Origin: Mesotoga infera
GTDB lineage: Bacteria > Thermotogota > Thermotogae > Petrotogales > Kosmotogaceae
Length of the DNA: 45,924 nt
Assembly (NCBI GenBank): GCA_011045915.1
Contig: DSBT01000121.1
Location: 1 to 45,924 of the forward strand
Direction of reading: 5' to 3'
The notes under the pieces were generated by a model. It searched no databases. It was given only the letters and a program-made list of their open reading frames with translations, and had not been told where the DNA came from. Made by a program: the position numbers and the translations under genes. Of this stretch, positions 39,061 to 44,249 are shown one piece after another; the stretch's first letter is position 1; each line of letters opens with the position of its first letter.

Positions 39061-40071
39061 TTATTTACTATGATTGATTGCAACCCTCTGAAGACGTTTA
39101 TCATTGTCGAGCAACTCGCCGATTCCTTTGACAACGCATGTCCTTGGGTCCTCAGACACTATCGTTTTTATGCCGGTCTCTTGAATAATTAGGTCCGGCA
39201 GACCTCTTATCAGCGAGCCTCCTCCGGTAAGGACAATGCCCGTGTCCATAATGTCTGCAGCGATCTCCGGAGGTGTGTCCTCTAAAATCTGACGAAGATT
39301 GAGTACAATGTCCTGAAGAATCTGAGAAATTGCCTCATGCACATCGTCAGAGGTAATTCTAATATTTCCGGGAAGGCCGTTCAGTGCGTCCCTCCCCCGA
39401 ACCTCAAGCTCATAGCTCTCCAGTGTCGGGAAAGCCTTTCCAATCTTGATTTTCACATCTTCGGCGGTGGAGCTTCCAATCAGGAACTTGTATTTGCGCT
39501 TCACAAATTTGATTATTGCCTCGTCCATCGCATCTCCCGCAATTCTTAGAGAACGAGAAACGACAATCCCTCCAAGGCTTATTACAGCTATATCGGAGGT
39601 CCCTCCTCCGATATCTACAACCATATTTCCCACGGAATCGAAAATATGAAGTCCTGCTCCAACAGCAGCCACAACTGGTTCAAGTACCAGATATACTCTA
39701 CTGGCTCCCGCAGCCGTGGTAGCCTCAATGACTGCTCTCCTCTCGACGCTGGTAACCTTAGCCGGAACCCCTACGACAACTGCAGGTCGGGAGAGTGAGA
39801 ATTTTGTGCGAGTTCTCTTGACCAGCTCTTTCAAAGCCTGTTCGATTATCTGATAATCGGCTATAACCCCGTCTCGAATAGGTCTGACAGCCTTGATGTC
39901 CTTTGGGGTCTTCCCGATCATCTCCTTGGCTTCAGATCCAATTGCGATTATCTTCCCAGTCTTCACTTCAACGGCAATGACCGAAGGTTCATCTATGACA
40001 ATATCTTTACCTTTCTGGAAGACCAAAAGTGAAGCAGTTCCCAAATCGATGCCAAGATCGCCCTTTTTCAT
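39061..40071 (-). CDS. mreB: Rod-shape actin homologue MreB
   Basis: MreB forms membrane-bound filaments that guide cell-wall elongation. Actin-fold phosphate loops are GIDLGTASLLV at the N-terminus and VVDIGGGTSDIAV in the middle; the adenosine motif is IVLTGGGSLIRGLP. 336 residues, normal. The ATG has GGGAGG 6 nt upstream. It follows tRNA-Arg by 24 nt on the same strand, without its own evident promoter, so its mRNA 5' end may be made by tRNA processing. mreC and mreD are not downstream here, which is unusual for this gene. Confidence 0.96.
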   Translation of the reverse strand: MKKGDLGIDLGTASLLVFQKGKDIVIDEPSVIAVEVKTGKIIAIGSEAKEMIGKTPKDIKAVRPIRDGVIADYQIIEQALKELVKRTRTKFSLSRPAVVVGVPAKVTSVERRAVIEATTAAGASRVYLVLEPVVAAVGAGLHIFDSVGNMVVDIGGGTSDIAVISLGGIVVSRSLRIAGDAMDEAIIKFVKRKYKFLIGSSTAEDVKIKIGKAFPTLESYELEVRGRDALNGLPGNIRITSDDVHEAISQILQDIVLNLRQILEDTPPEIAADIMDTGIVLTGGGSLIRGLPDLIIQETGIKTIVSEDPRTCVVKGIGELLDNDKRLQRVAINHSK

Positions 40072-40095
40072 AAATTACCTCCCGTGTGACATAAA

Positions 40096-40171
40096 TGGCG
40101 TGCTCGGTGGGATTTGAACCCACAGTCTCTGGATCCGGAGTCCAGCGCTCTATCCGTTGAGCCACGAGCAC
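40096..40171 (-). tRNA. tRNA-Arg (anticodon CCG), CCA encoded
   Basis: A full cloverleaf reads on the minus strand from 40171: acceptor GTGCTCG/CGAGCAC (7 bp), D stem GCTC/GAGC, anticodon stem CTGGA/TCCAG with loop CTCCGGA (anticodon CCG), T stem GTGGG/CCCAC with loop TTCAAAT, discriminator G and encoded CCA. It reads arginine CGG codons. Its first 22 nt also encode the end of ruvX, and mreB follows 24 nt after its CCA. Confidence 0.96.
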
Positions 40172-40860
40172 TCAATAACCTGCAGTCCTCTTGAATTCAG
40201 ATGAGCCATCCCATCGAGCGCTTCACCACAAGCGATTACTATTATATCGTAAGTTGAAAAGTCTATGTCGTCAACGAGGTTTACCGGCTTCAATCCTTTC
40301 CTGAAGAATGAAAGGAAGACCTGTGGGTCTTCAACAAACACCCCGGGCGTTTTCTCCAGTGAGTCTATTCCCTTAATTAGCCCAGATTTCGGCTTGAAAA
40401 ACAACACTCTGCTGCCAGACGGAAGTTCGGGCAAATTCAGGCATTTACTTCTATTGCTGTGGACTTCCCATATCACAGACTTTCCGGAGGACTCATTCCT
40501 GAGAATTTTCATTGCGCTGAAAACATCCCTTACTTTCGCGAATTCTATCCCAATCTCAACAGACATTCTTCTCGCACTTTCAGTTGTAAGGGTCTCATCG
40601 ACAAGCACTACATTGCCAGGAAACATTTTCTTCACTTTCTCCGCAAATGAGACTGCTCTCATAGTAGATTCACTGTATCTGCCCGACATTGAAATTGGTA
40701 GACCGATAACCACAGTCTCTATTTCTTTCTCCTTCAAGATTTCCGGGAGTGACTTTCGGTAGCCGGCGTGATCTATCGAATATAGAGGGATCTCCACTCC
40801 CTCTATCTGTAAGGCGAGTCCTATTTTCGATGTACCGAAGTCAATTCCAAGTTTAATCAT
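40150..40860 (-). CDS. RuvX/YqgF-type putative Holliday junction resolvase with C-terminal extension
   Basis: Residues 1-122 are a complete RuvX/YqgF RNase H-fold domain (Holliday junction resolvase or 16S rRNA 5'-end maturation). Asp7 (GIDFGTSKIG), Glu89 (LVDETLTTESARR) and Asp112 (KVRDVFSA) are the catalytic acids; VIGLPISMSGRYSE is the glycine motif. The family is usually about 130-150 residues; here 236. Residues 123-236 form an extra region with a possible alpha/beta fold (strands RVLFFK, IIVIACG, LQVIECSW) that I cannot place. The last codons and the stop TAG lie inside tRNA-Arg. Start ATG overlaps the DUF3343 stop by 8 nt. Confidence 0.82.
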   Translation of the reverse strand: MIKLGIDFGTSKIGLALQIEGVEIPLYSIDHAGYRKSLPEILKEKEIETVVIGLPISMSGRYSESTMRAVSFAEKVKKMFPGNVVLVDETLTTESARRMSVEIGIEFAKVRDVFSAMKILRNESSGKSVIWEVHSNRSKCLNLPELPSGSRVLFFKPKSGLIKGIDSLEKTPGVFVEDPQVFLSFFRKGLKPVNLVDDIDFSTYDIIVIACGEALDGMAHLNSRGLQVIECSWLNG

Positions 40861-41113
40861 AGAAGGATCTTACCGGATTATCAACGAAGTAACTTGTGAG
40901 CAGGACCTCAATTTTTGCCAGCAACAGGAGTTCCGAACTTACGTCAAGGTCTCTGGAGGCGACTGCAATCGAAAGAGAGCATCCAGTGAATAGACTCGGT
41001 GGTGTTGGAAAAACCTTCGCCTGCAAGCCAGCACTTCTAAGGAGTGAGATGGCTTCAAGGATGTCTTTTTGCGAAACAACGACTAAAGCATCCAGTTGCC
41101 GAGTATCAACCAA
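40853..41113 (-). CDS. DUF3343 protein, putative sulfur/selenium carrier-like
   Basis: This 86-residue protein has the DUF3343 pattern: helix with ALLR-type residues, then KVFPTPPSLFTGCSLSIAV, in which Cys45 follows a TP(P/R)xLxxGC motif. Pfam describes the family as putative Se/S carrier-like; function is unproven. The start is TTG at 41113, 7 nt after GAGGTG in the recJ end, with an 8-nt overlap at each end. It lies between recJ and ruvX, far from selenium genes; a sulfur relay with the SUF cysteine desulfurase encoded 6 kb away is only a guess. Confidence 0.75.
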   Translation of the reverse strand: MVDTRQLDALVVVSQKDILEAISLLRSAGLQAKVFPTPPSLFTGCSLSIAVASRDLDVSSELLLLAKIEVLLTSYFVDNPVRSFYD

Positions 41114-44100
41114 CTTTCAGCACCTCTTCCGCATTCGTAAGACTCCTTAGCAAACCTCTTGTGGTCATGGTTGAGAGTTTGGTTGCAAACCATCTCGTCA
41201 TTCTCTTCTCAGCAACACCCTCTCTGTATCTCAGGGTCTTCTTGACCTGAGAAGTATCAAGATCCGATCCTGAGCTGCTATGCCATACGCCGCTTTCTAC
41301 GCTTAGCAGATTCATCTCCTCCAGCATTGACAAAAAGACTTTCGAAATCCCATCTTCAAAGCTGAGCGCCTTTCTTATATCTCTTTCTGAAGCCGGCAGA
41401 ACATCCTTCAAATCCTGGTATACAGCTTCCAGTTCTTCGACTGTGGGAAACAACCTGTCCATTTCATTCGTATTGGAAATAAGATCTGCCTTATTGAAAG
41501 ACAAATTCAGAAACAACTCAGAATCCTCGCCGGGTCTTGTTGATACGGAATCAATAACCTCCAGAAAGTTCCTCGGTGCGCTGTAGAAAACGATATTCGA
41601 GTTGCCCAACGTGACACCGAGGCCGTCGCTTGAAGGAGTCATTATCAAAACTCTTATCTTCTGTCTTTCAACCAAAGAATAGATAACAGATCTCTGAAAA
41701 TCCTTAAGAAGATAATTGTAAAAAATCAGCTCGCCGTTCTGAAGAGCATGTGAGAGCCTCGAACCCATAGATTTCGCGAGGCTAACCGTTTTATGCGGAG
41801 AATCAACGATCACAGCCACGTTCTCACCGTGACCAACTATTGACATAACTTGCTCAACCTTTTTTCTGGAGCCGCGGTTGTCGATTATCCCGACTCTCTT
41901 TATGGGACTGGGTTTGTATATATTGGATATCCTCCTGTCCGAGAGAAAATCCTTCAGATCGTCATAGAAGACGCTTCCTGCGAAACCGGAAATACCGAGT
42001 ACCTTGTCGACGTTCTTGAGAAACGCTTCAAGATCAGGGTGATCCTTGTAGATACCAGAGAGAATATAAGTCGGTTCGTCGAAGATTATCTCGCCGGCGA
42101 TCTCGGAAATTTCCTTGAATCTCTCGACGAAGAACGGCAGAGTTATAAACACAACAGGTTCATCCAGCCTGCCTCGGTAAAGAGAGTTCGCAAAGACCGG
42201 CTTTATCGAATCCAAATAATGCTGCAGCGAATAATAAGTGTGTGCCAAAGTACCGTTGATAGCCGATACTATAAAGGTTTTCTTGCCCTGCTGATAGTTC
42301 TTCAATATCTTGAGAGCCAAAAAGGGATTCTTTATTCTGATGTTGCCGAACACTCCCCACGGATTTCTGGTGCTGATATCCAGGAATTCCGGACACTTAT
42401 GAGATAGTTTCTTCTCCAGTTCGCCTATCAGTGATGATACATCTGTCTTGCCCTGTGAACCAGGCTGCTGATTCTTCCAGTCTCTAATAAACTCAAAGAC
42501 GAAATTCTTGTCTCTAACTTCCTCTTCAAATACCGGATCAATGTATAATTTCGCGTCAGAGAGTGAAAGCTTGACACTCTGAAGTCCGTAAAGATTATCG
42601 CTCTTTACCGAGGCTATCGCATCTACCTTCAGAAGATTCGGCTTAACGTACTTGAAGTCATCGAACATGGTGCCCATGTTATACCCGATCGCAAGAGTCT
42701 TTCTATCACCGCAGCGAAGGATTAGTTTCACATGATCACTACTGCTGCCGAACATCTTTGCCTTTTCTATGTTAAGACCTTTGATCAGAAATCTCGGCTC
42801 GGGATTCGAGTGGCCAAAGGGTCTCAGAAGTTCGAGCTTATCAAGAATGCCCGACGTAATGGAATCAAGAGACAGAACATCGTCCACATCGATCTTGAAG
42901 ACCGGTTGCTTCTTTCCGTACAGCCTTATATAAGCATCGTTTATCGCGGTTCTGAATTTTGATATGTTTTCTTTGTCAATGCTGAATCCAGCTGCCATTT
43001 CATGCCCGCCAAACTCTCTCAGCAAGTGTGAAACTTCATTCAGCAGACTTATTATGCTTACTCCTGCCGGACTTCTGGCCGAACCTTTACCGTCTGAACC
43101 ATTAGTGGCAATTAGAAAAACGGGTTTATTATGAATTGAAACAAGTCTTGAAGCCACTATTCCCAGTACTCCTAAGTGCCAGTTATCTCCATCGATTACT
43201 AGAGCAAAATCATCCTCGAAACTCGCAGTGTTTGCGAGATCCTTTTCAGTTTGATCAAAAATCTTTGCCTCTATGGTCTGTCGGTTCTGATTGTGTTTCA
43301 GAAGACGGCTGGCGGTATTCATTGCCGAATCCATATCCTCGCTAATGAGAAGCTCCAACGCAACTATTGCGGAAGCCATTCTTCCGGCAGCATTAAGCTT
43401 CGGAGCTATCTTGAAAGCGATATCTTGCGCTGTAAGATTCTCAGCCGGAATTCTAAGATATGATAGAAGGGCCTTCAAACCAAGCAGTGGGCTGCTCTGG
43501 ATCTTCGCAGTACCTTCCCTGACAATGTAGCGGTTCTCATCCCTTAGCGGAACTATATCGGCAATTGTTCCTAGCGCGACTATGTCCAGATAATCCTCAG
43601 GATCAATAGGACAGTGAAGGGTCTCATTCAATGCCACCAGCAGTTTGAAAGCCACTCCTACCCCGGCAAGTCCCTTGAAGGGATAATCATCGTCCGGTCT
43701 CTTTGGATTGATTATGGCATCGGCGGGCGGGAGAACATCTTTCACTTCATGATGATCCGTGACAACTACATTGAAACCTATCTCCTTTGCGTATGTAATC
43801 TCATCAAATGAGGTAACTCCGCAATCTACGGTTATTAGCAGGCTGTGTCCCTGGTCTCTCAGATCCTTAATTGCGTCCTTGCTCAGACCGTATCCTTCTT
43901 CCAACCTTAAGGGGATGTAGTAGCTCACATCGAAGCCCATTCTCTTCATTGCAAGATAAAGGAGCGCGGTGCTTGTAACTCCATCAACGTCGTAATCACC
44001 AAAGATTACAATACTCTCGTTTCTTTCTCTGGTTTCAATGATTGTCCGGACAGCCAGCGGCATATCTTTTAGAAGGAAGGAATCGTGAAGAATAGTTTTG

Positions 44101-44249
44101 TCAGGATTAAGAAACTTCATTGCCTCAACCTCATTATCGACTCCACGTGTTACCAATAACCTTGCTAGAAATTGATCAATACCCATGAATTCGACCAGTC
44201 TATTGACGGCCTCATCATCGGGCTTTAGGAGAAGCCACTCCTTTCTCAT
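41106..44249 (-). CDS. recJ: Single-stranded DNA exonuclease RecJ with large C-terminal extension
   Basis: RecJ degrades single-stranded DNA 5'-3' in repair. The DHH phosphoesterase motifs are DYDVDG (85-90), VDCGVT (141-146) and TDHH (164-167); DHHA1 has GGHEMAAGFSI, and an OB-fold follows to about 580. The protein has 1047 residues against about 560-580 for E. coli RecJ. The extra ~430 residues contain KKTFIVSAINGTLAHTYY, FDEPTYILSG and MTPSSDGLGVT followed by IVFYSAPRN. These resemble strand/loop order of a degraded superfamily 2 helicase (no intact Walker A). Such a C-terminal region is also known in longer Firmicutes RecJ. The ATG has GAGGGTGG upstream; extended -10 at 44283-44291. Confidence 0.9.
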   Translation of the reverse strand: MRKEWLLLKPDDEAVNRLVEFMGIDQFLARLLVTRGVDNEVEAMKFLNPDKTILHDSFLLKDMPLAVRTIIETRERNESIVIFGDYDVDGVTSTALLYLAMKRMGFDVSYYIPLRLEEGYGLSKDAIKDLRDQGHSLLITVDCGVTSFDEITYAKEIGFNVVVTDHHEVKDVLPPADAIINPKRPDDDYPFKGLAGVGVAFKLLVALNETLHCPIDPEDYLDIVALGTIADIVPLRDENRYIVREGTAKIQSSPLLGLKALLSYLRIPAENLTAQDIAFKIAPKLNAAGRMASAIVALELLISEDMDSAMNTASRLLKHNQNRQTIEAKIFDQTEKDLANTASFEDDFALVIDGDNWHLGVLGIVASRLVSIHNKPVFLIATNGSDGKGSARSPAGVSIISLLNEVSHLLREFGGHEMAAGFSIDKENISKFRTAINDAYIRLYGKKQPVFKIDVDDVLSLDSITSGILDKLELLRPFGHSNPEPRFLIKGLNIEKAKMFGSSSDHVKLILRCGDRKTLAIGYNMGTMFDDFKYVKPNLLKVDAIASVKSDNLYGLQSVKLSLSDAKLYIDPVFEEEVRDKNFVFEFIRDWKNQQPGSQGKTDVSSLIGELEKKLSHKCPEFLDISTRNPWGVFGNIRIKNPFLALKILKNYQQGKKTFIVSAINGTLAHTYYSLQHYLDSIKPVFANSLYRGRLDEPVVFITLPFFVERFKEISEIAGEIIFDEPTYILSGIYKDHPDLEAFLKNVDKVLGISGFAGSVFYDDLKDFLSDRRISNIYKPSPIKRVGIIDNRGSRKKVEQVMSIVGHGENVAVIVDSPHKTVSLAKSMGSRLSHALQNGELIFYNYLLKDFQRSVIYSLVERQKIRVLIMTPSSDGLGVTLGNSNIVFYSAPRNFLEVIDSVSTRPGEDSELFLNLSFNKADLISNTNEMDRLFPTVEELEAVYQDLKDVLPASERDIRKALSFEDGISKVFLSMLEEMNLLSVESGVWHSSSGSDLDTSQVKKTLRYREGVAEKRMTRWFATKLSTMTTRGLLRSLTNAEEVLKVG

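Follow-up and report, generated by a model that had tools for sequence, protein, structure and literature searches.

A ruvX gene that ends inside the downstream tRNA-Arg(CCG) gene in Mesotoga infera and across much of the Thermotogota

Overlaps between selB and the tRNA gene selC have been described in Alphaproteobacteria, Gammaproteobacteria and Nitrospirae (Mukai 2021, PMC8124441). In Dyella and Luteibacter the selB stop codon lies inside tRNA-Sec, at nt 46-48, and there too the formation of a non-stop mRNA after tRNA processing, with alternative expression of the protein or the tRNA, is a hypothesis (PMC8124441). Mitochondrial genes offer another example, the overlap between cox1 and tRNA-Lys of Armadillidium (cited in PMC8124441). 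Here we examine a 45,924-nt stretch of Mesotoga infera DNA (the window), in which ruvX ends within the tRNA-Arg(CCG) gene that follows it. The selB/selC pair is the closest precedent, as in both cases the end of a bacterial protein gene falls within the tRNA gene that follows on the same strand, and tRNA processing would leave a non-stop mRNA. In contrast to selB/selC, however, the partner of ruvX is an ordinary tRNA-Arg without a known ruvX partnership, the stop codon falls at nt 8-10 or 20-22, the arrangement spans most of a phylum and a constrained promoter-like element is found within the upstream gene. The cox1/tRNA-Lys case also has bases common to a protein gene and a tRNA, and processing of one precludes the other, but it is mitochondrial and not bacterial, with a different code and different processing. 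With regard to the downstream side of the locus, the E. coli thrU-tyrU-glyT-thrT-tufB operon is a mixed tRNA-mRNA transcription unit in which, as at tRNA-mreB, a protein gene stands close behind a tRNA with no terminator evident between them, whereas in our locus the upstream protein gene also overlaps the tRNA. We found no paper on ruvX/tRNA-Arg in Thermotoga, most of the subscription literature being outside the search, and we provisionally regard this overlap as undescribed.

The features of the locus, all on the minus strand, are the following:
recJ, 41106 to 44249, minus strand: upstream member of the same gene run
Small ORF, Se_S_carrier-like (PF11823), 40853 to 41113, minus strand: overlaps the recJ end by 8 nt and the ruvX start by 8 nt
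ruvX (yqgF), 40860 to 40150, minus strand: 236 aa, TAG stop at 40152-40150, with the RuvX domain in residues 1-121 and an extra domain at the C-terminus
Invariant TTACGATATAATAGTA within ruvX codons, 40237 to 40252, minus strand: perfect -10 hexamer TATAAT at 40246-40241, candidate promoter of the tRNA (and mreB)
tRNA-Arg(CCG) with encoded CCA, 40171 to 40096, minus strand: found by ARAGORN and by Rfam (RF00005)
Overlap of ruvX and tRNA, 22 nt, 40150 to 40171, minus strand: tRNA nt 1-22, that is, the last base of the Glu-230 codon, the Cys-Ser-Trp-Leu-Asn-Gly codons and TAG
tRNA nt 8-10, 40162 to 40164, minus strand: TGG here (U8 G9 G10); in relatives TAG, the ruvX stop (10-nt overlap)
Gap between tRNA and mreB, 24 nt, 40072 to 40095, minus strand: Shine-Dalgarno GGGAGG at 40083-40078
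mreB, 39061 to 40071, minus strand: 336 aa, final gene of the run, after which comes a convergent gene

Thus, ruvX, tRNA-Arg(CCG) and mreB share the minus strand and close a run in the order recJ, Se_S_carrier-like ORF, ruvX, tRNA and mreB, whose first two borders overlap by 8 nt each. The first-pass annotation had placed the ruvX stop in the tRNA D-loop, with 22 nt shared, and mreB 24 nt after the tRNA on the same strand. ARAGORN, Rfam and the ORF coordinates agree with both statements: the TAG corresponds to tRNA nt 20-22, comprising the last two bases of the D-loop and the first base of the 3′ D-stem, and the mreB start (40071) is 24 nt past the encoded CCA. The tRNA matched RF00005 with 71.8 bits and its cloverleaf folds at -31.3 kcal/mol (z -2.75). 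The ruvX ORF matched the Pfam family PF03652 (1.7e-20, 74.2 bits against a cut-off of 29.2), RuvX/YqgF structures were the best PDB fold matches of the RuvX model, and the mreB ORF matched the MreB domain with 1.5e-129; the domain matches of RuvX and MreB indicate that the ruvX frame is not a chance ORF. By comparison with named relatives, the contig belongs within Mesotoga or beside it, one Mesotoga sp. locus sharing 89% identity across the whole RuvX.

How unusual the arrangement is was judged against the 33 tRNA entries of this genome (one of them present twice, on two contigs) and, in the Thermotoga-type genome G090, against 35 distinct tRNAs. Of all these, just tRNA-Arg(CCG) clearly forms the end of a gene that can be recognised. 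Two further frames run into tRNAs: one of 103 aa into tRNA-Val in this genome (L033), which has no assigned gene and was treated as a chance ORF, and one of 131 aa into tRNA-Thr(CGT) in G090 (L193), ending at the TAG of nt 8-10, also without assigned gene and probably due to chance.

Arg(CCG) gave a single match in the genome, the two remaining matches being Arg(GCG) and Arg(TCG), and with a TCG tRNA also at hand, the one for CCG is perhaps not strictly essential. Marinitoga-type loci (L019-L022, L024, L025, L027) have no tRNA-Arg(CCG) after ruvX, and the Arg tRNA matches in four Marinitoga-type genomes (G021, G022, G025, G026) are GCG and TCG only, which suggests that these genomes have lost the CCG isoacceptor. 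In Mesotoga (G000:C256:12334-12410, L161), as well as in Kosmotoga, Petrotogaceae-type and Thermotoga-type genomes, one Arg tRNA carries the anticodon GCG, not ACG, and these genomes may therefore lack inosine-34 decoding of Arg. In Petrotogaceae-type genomes (L152 and L168-L171; G031, G028, G026, G022, G021), tRNA-Arg(TCG) lies ~50 nt before a small gene, MAE(V/L/M)E(V/I)LKVAANS..., and this is a conserved neighbourhood.

We located ruvX in 99 of 103 Thermotogota genomes and read 98 loci, genus and family names being inferred by way of named loci. tRNA-Arg(CCG) was the next same-strand feature after ruvX in 75 of them, and in 55 of the 98 the ruvX stop lay at least 10 nt inside the tRNA. The overlap was present in all Kosmotogaceae-type (f1, 17/17), f10 (14/14) and f8 (10/10) loci, in 11 of 20 Petrotogaceae-type loci (f2), the remaining nine having no tRNA there, in two of 19 in f9 and in one of three in f6; in most f9 genomes ruvX has its own stop 4-51 nt ahead of the tRNA. 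Within f1, f2, f8 and f10, all genomes with an adjacent tRNA (52/52) retain the overlap. That relatives might keep it had been a point to check, and they do so at the level of genus, family and phylum. On these loci, the overlap is old, conserved across the phylum and the usual state in Thermotogota.

Positions 8 and 10 of tRNAs are almost always U and G, and position 9 is mostly a purine. Therefore, a frame that comes in at nt 2 runs into UAG, a stop, or else into UGG, a tryptophan codon. Of the 55 overlapping loci, 40 stop at U8-A9-G10 (some of these 10-nt overlaps being printed as 11 nt, since ARAGORN begins some tRNAs one base early); the sequence is G|TGC CCG TAG or G|TGC CTG TAG in Kosmotoga- and Thermotoga-type genomes. 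The other 15 reach the stop in the D-loop, 11 of them by means of a G at position 9 (genera g1 and g2) and four through a different frame. In Mesotoga and its sister genus, this G9 makes UGG, and ruvX continues to the in-frame stop at nt 20-22; the Mesotoga sequence, G|TGC TCG TGG CTC AAC GGA TAG, adds Trp-Leu-Asn-Gly before that stop. Hence, the difference of a single tRNA base (A9 against G9) lengthens RuvX by four residues. Within Mesotoga, the protein tail preceding the tRNA is variable while the tRNA-coded end is constant, indicating that the tRNA dictates the RuvX terminus. The 10-nt overlap was probably the ancestral form and the 22-nt overlap of Mesotoga a derived extension.

About 70 nt upstream of the tRNA, inside ruvX, the sequence TTACGATATAATAGTA is identical in 10 Mesotoga genomes. 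Synonymous conservation of ruvX in 10 Mesotoga genomes is highest at the codons for STYDIIVIAC, with a local-window excess of 0.617 against a gene mean of 0.208 (0/10,000 permutations), and Kosmotoga-type genera keep TTACGATATAATTGTT, TATAAT included. A weaker significant peak of constraint (p about 0.002) occurs at the same place in f8, where CCTTTTGATATCAT presents TGA before a -10-like TATCAT. Individual f8 loci (L084, L094, L095, L099, L104, L105, L107-L109) have TGA before a -10-like TATCAT or TATTAT, with TTGGAA 17 nt upstream. In Marinitoga, which has no tRNA there, the equivalent place showed no synonymous constraint (-0.011). Nor was such constraint found in the Thermotoga-type f10 or the Petrotogaceae genus g11, though both keep the overlap, which implies that the promoter part is not general.

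Promoters of T. maritima have sigma-70-like elements, an optional TGn and a start 7 bp after the -10 (PMC3636130). At the Mesotoga locus no TGn precedes the TATAAT, and the -35 candidates are weak or at an unfavourable distance (ACGACA at 19 nt, matching 4/6 and not in all genera, and TTGACG at 22 nt); this poor -35 is the main weakness of the promoter reading. A pattern scan for promoters and terminators returned match counts no better than those of shuffles, so the case for a promoter rests on the constraint, from which we infer an embedded promoter for the tRNA and mreB in Kosmotogaceae, and perhaps in f8 too. As to the tRNA-proximal promoter that the first-pass annotation had proposed to look for, the constrained -10 about 70 nt upstream provides a candidate and the weak -35 counts against it. 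The same constraint might instead mark an RNA element, either a leader structure or a processing site, as constraint alone cannot separate DNA from RNA function and the -35 is weak. We consider this explanation unlikely, given that the Kosmotoga-type genera retain TATAAT but not the possible TTAC/GTAA arms, and that no Rfam match besides the tRNA was found.

Taking the promoter reading as the preferred one, promoter use, co-transcription and RNase P cutting can be put together, from sequence, as follows. The tRNA gene would donate the end of the upstream protein gene, and the overlap would be a product of tight gene packing. In Kosmotogaceae, the tRNA, together with mreB, would be transcribed mainly from the promoter in ruvX, with a start near 40234 and a leader of ~63 nt, and in addition at the end of the recJ-ruvX transcript. 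RNase P and a 3′ nuclease would act on the short RNA (leader, tRNA and mreB), and the mreB message would be left with a leader of at most 24 nt that contains GGGAGG. Dedicated promoters for the tRNA and, separately, for mreB had been named as the sign that the genes are not co-transcribed; of these, a tRNA candidate does exist inside ruvX, while in the 24-nt gap neither a separate mreB promoter nor a terminator is evident. On the long recJ-ruvX-tRNA-mreB RNA, a conflict between RNase P and the ribosome is implied, and each molecule would yield mature tRNA or a fully translatable ruvX message, never both. That RNase P, on cleaving the 5′-end of the tRNA, would remove the ruvX stop, as already remarked in the first-pass annotation, follows from the position of the stop inside the tRNA; cutting at nt 1 would leave a ruvX message without stop, a substrate for tmRNA, which is present in the genome. 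This conflict may be tolerated because of the second promoter and of ribosomes closely trailing the polymerase. The tRNA would not have to rely on the ruvX transcript, given the constrained promoter-like element inside ruvX. The reading as a whole, that is, an overlap due to tight packing with an ancestral 10-nt form, an embedded promoter plus recJ-ruvX tail transcription, either-or processing that is tolerated and no sign of a role as a regulator, seems to us probable.

RuvX has been linked in other bacteria to pre-16S rRNA maturation. If the overlap were a regulatory switch, RNase P processing would generate non-stop ruvX mRNA and hence less RuvX, and tRNA processing or translation load would set the level of RuvX, which would then track translation capacity. 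The conservation of the overlap across the phylum and the presence of tmRNA fit with this possibility, and the same kind of hypothesis has been published for selB/selC (PMC8124441). However, most f9 genomes lack the overlap, in Marinitoga the tRNA has disappeared entirely, and a separate promoter would put the tRNA beyond such control. In addition, we know of no functional pairing of RuvX and tRNA-Arg comparable to that of SelB and tRNA-Sec. Overall, there is no evidence that the overlap is used as a regulator, and we give the switch little credence. The broader coupling of repair, tRNA and cell-shape genes put forward in the first-pass annotation is not supported either, since losses of mreB or of the tRNA have occurred repeatedly with the rest undisturbed. 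Two Mesotoga genomes that keep the overlap (G006, G009) showed no mreB behind the tRNA, and none was seen in what was read of f10g32, g33, g36, f9, f6 and f4, where the ruvX-tRNA adjacency is kept; in G020 and G028 the tRNA is gone, mreB directly follows ruvX and ruvX has its own stop. Parts that come apart so freely fit with gene packing and not with a three-way circuit, and the link among these genes looks like a neighbourhood rather than a function.

The ruvX frame is most likely used into the tRNA. In the fold model (pLDDT 86.8), the last strand comprises residues 227-231, QVIEC, and C231, the first codon wholly within the tRNA, ends it; this final predicted beta-strand is thus encoded on both sides of the tRNA start, which argues that the frame is real. 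In the last 60 nt, the other two frames have 8-10% stops, which makes an unselected open tail unlikely; in the 55 overlapping genomes, the zero for stops of the ruvX frame arises by construction, whereas the 52/52 retention does not. Although the sequence varies in the tail beyond the YDIIVI strand and solved RuvX/YqgF structures have just ~120-150 residues, the explanation that the overlap is a chance or annotation artefact, with the true ruvX ending earlier or the long frame not translated to its end, is highly improbable in view of the 52 of 52 genomes of four families without an upstream stop, the predicted strand at the C-terminus and the similar ends (GKIILV, GRLVCL) in genera with and without the overlap. 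Thermotogota RuvX proteins have a second, C-terminal alpha/beta region of ~90-100 residues (about 150-236) that is absent from the E. coli and B. subtilis YqgF structures, and Pfam and the PDB fold search match the N-terminal part only. Annotation pipelines that forbid overlaps between CDS and tRNA would truncate RuvX here.

Taken together, ruvX and tRNA-Arg(CCG) are a clear bacterial example, extending over the phylum, of a protein gene that takes its stop codon from the tRNA gene behind it, and the Thermotogota, some of which are without the overlap, the tRNA or mreB, offer a natural test bed for the competition between the ribosome and RNase P.
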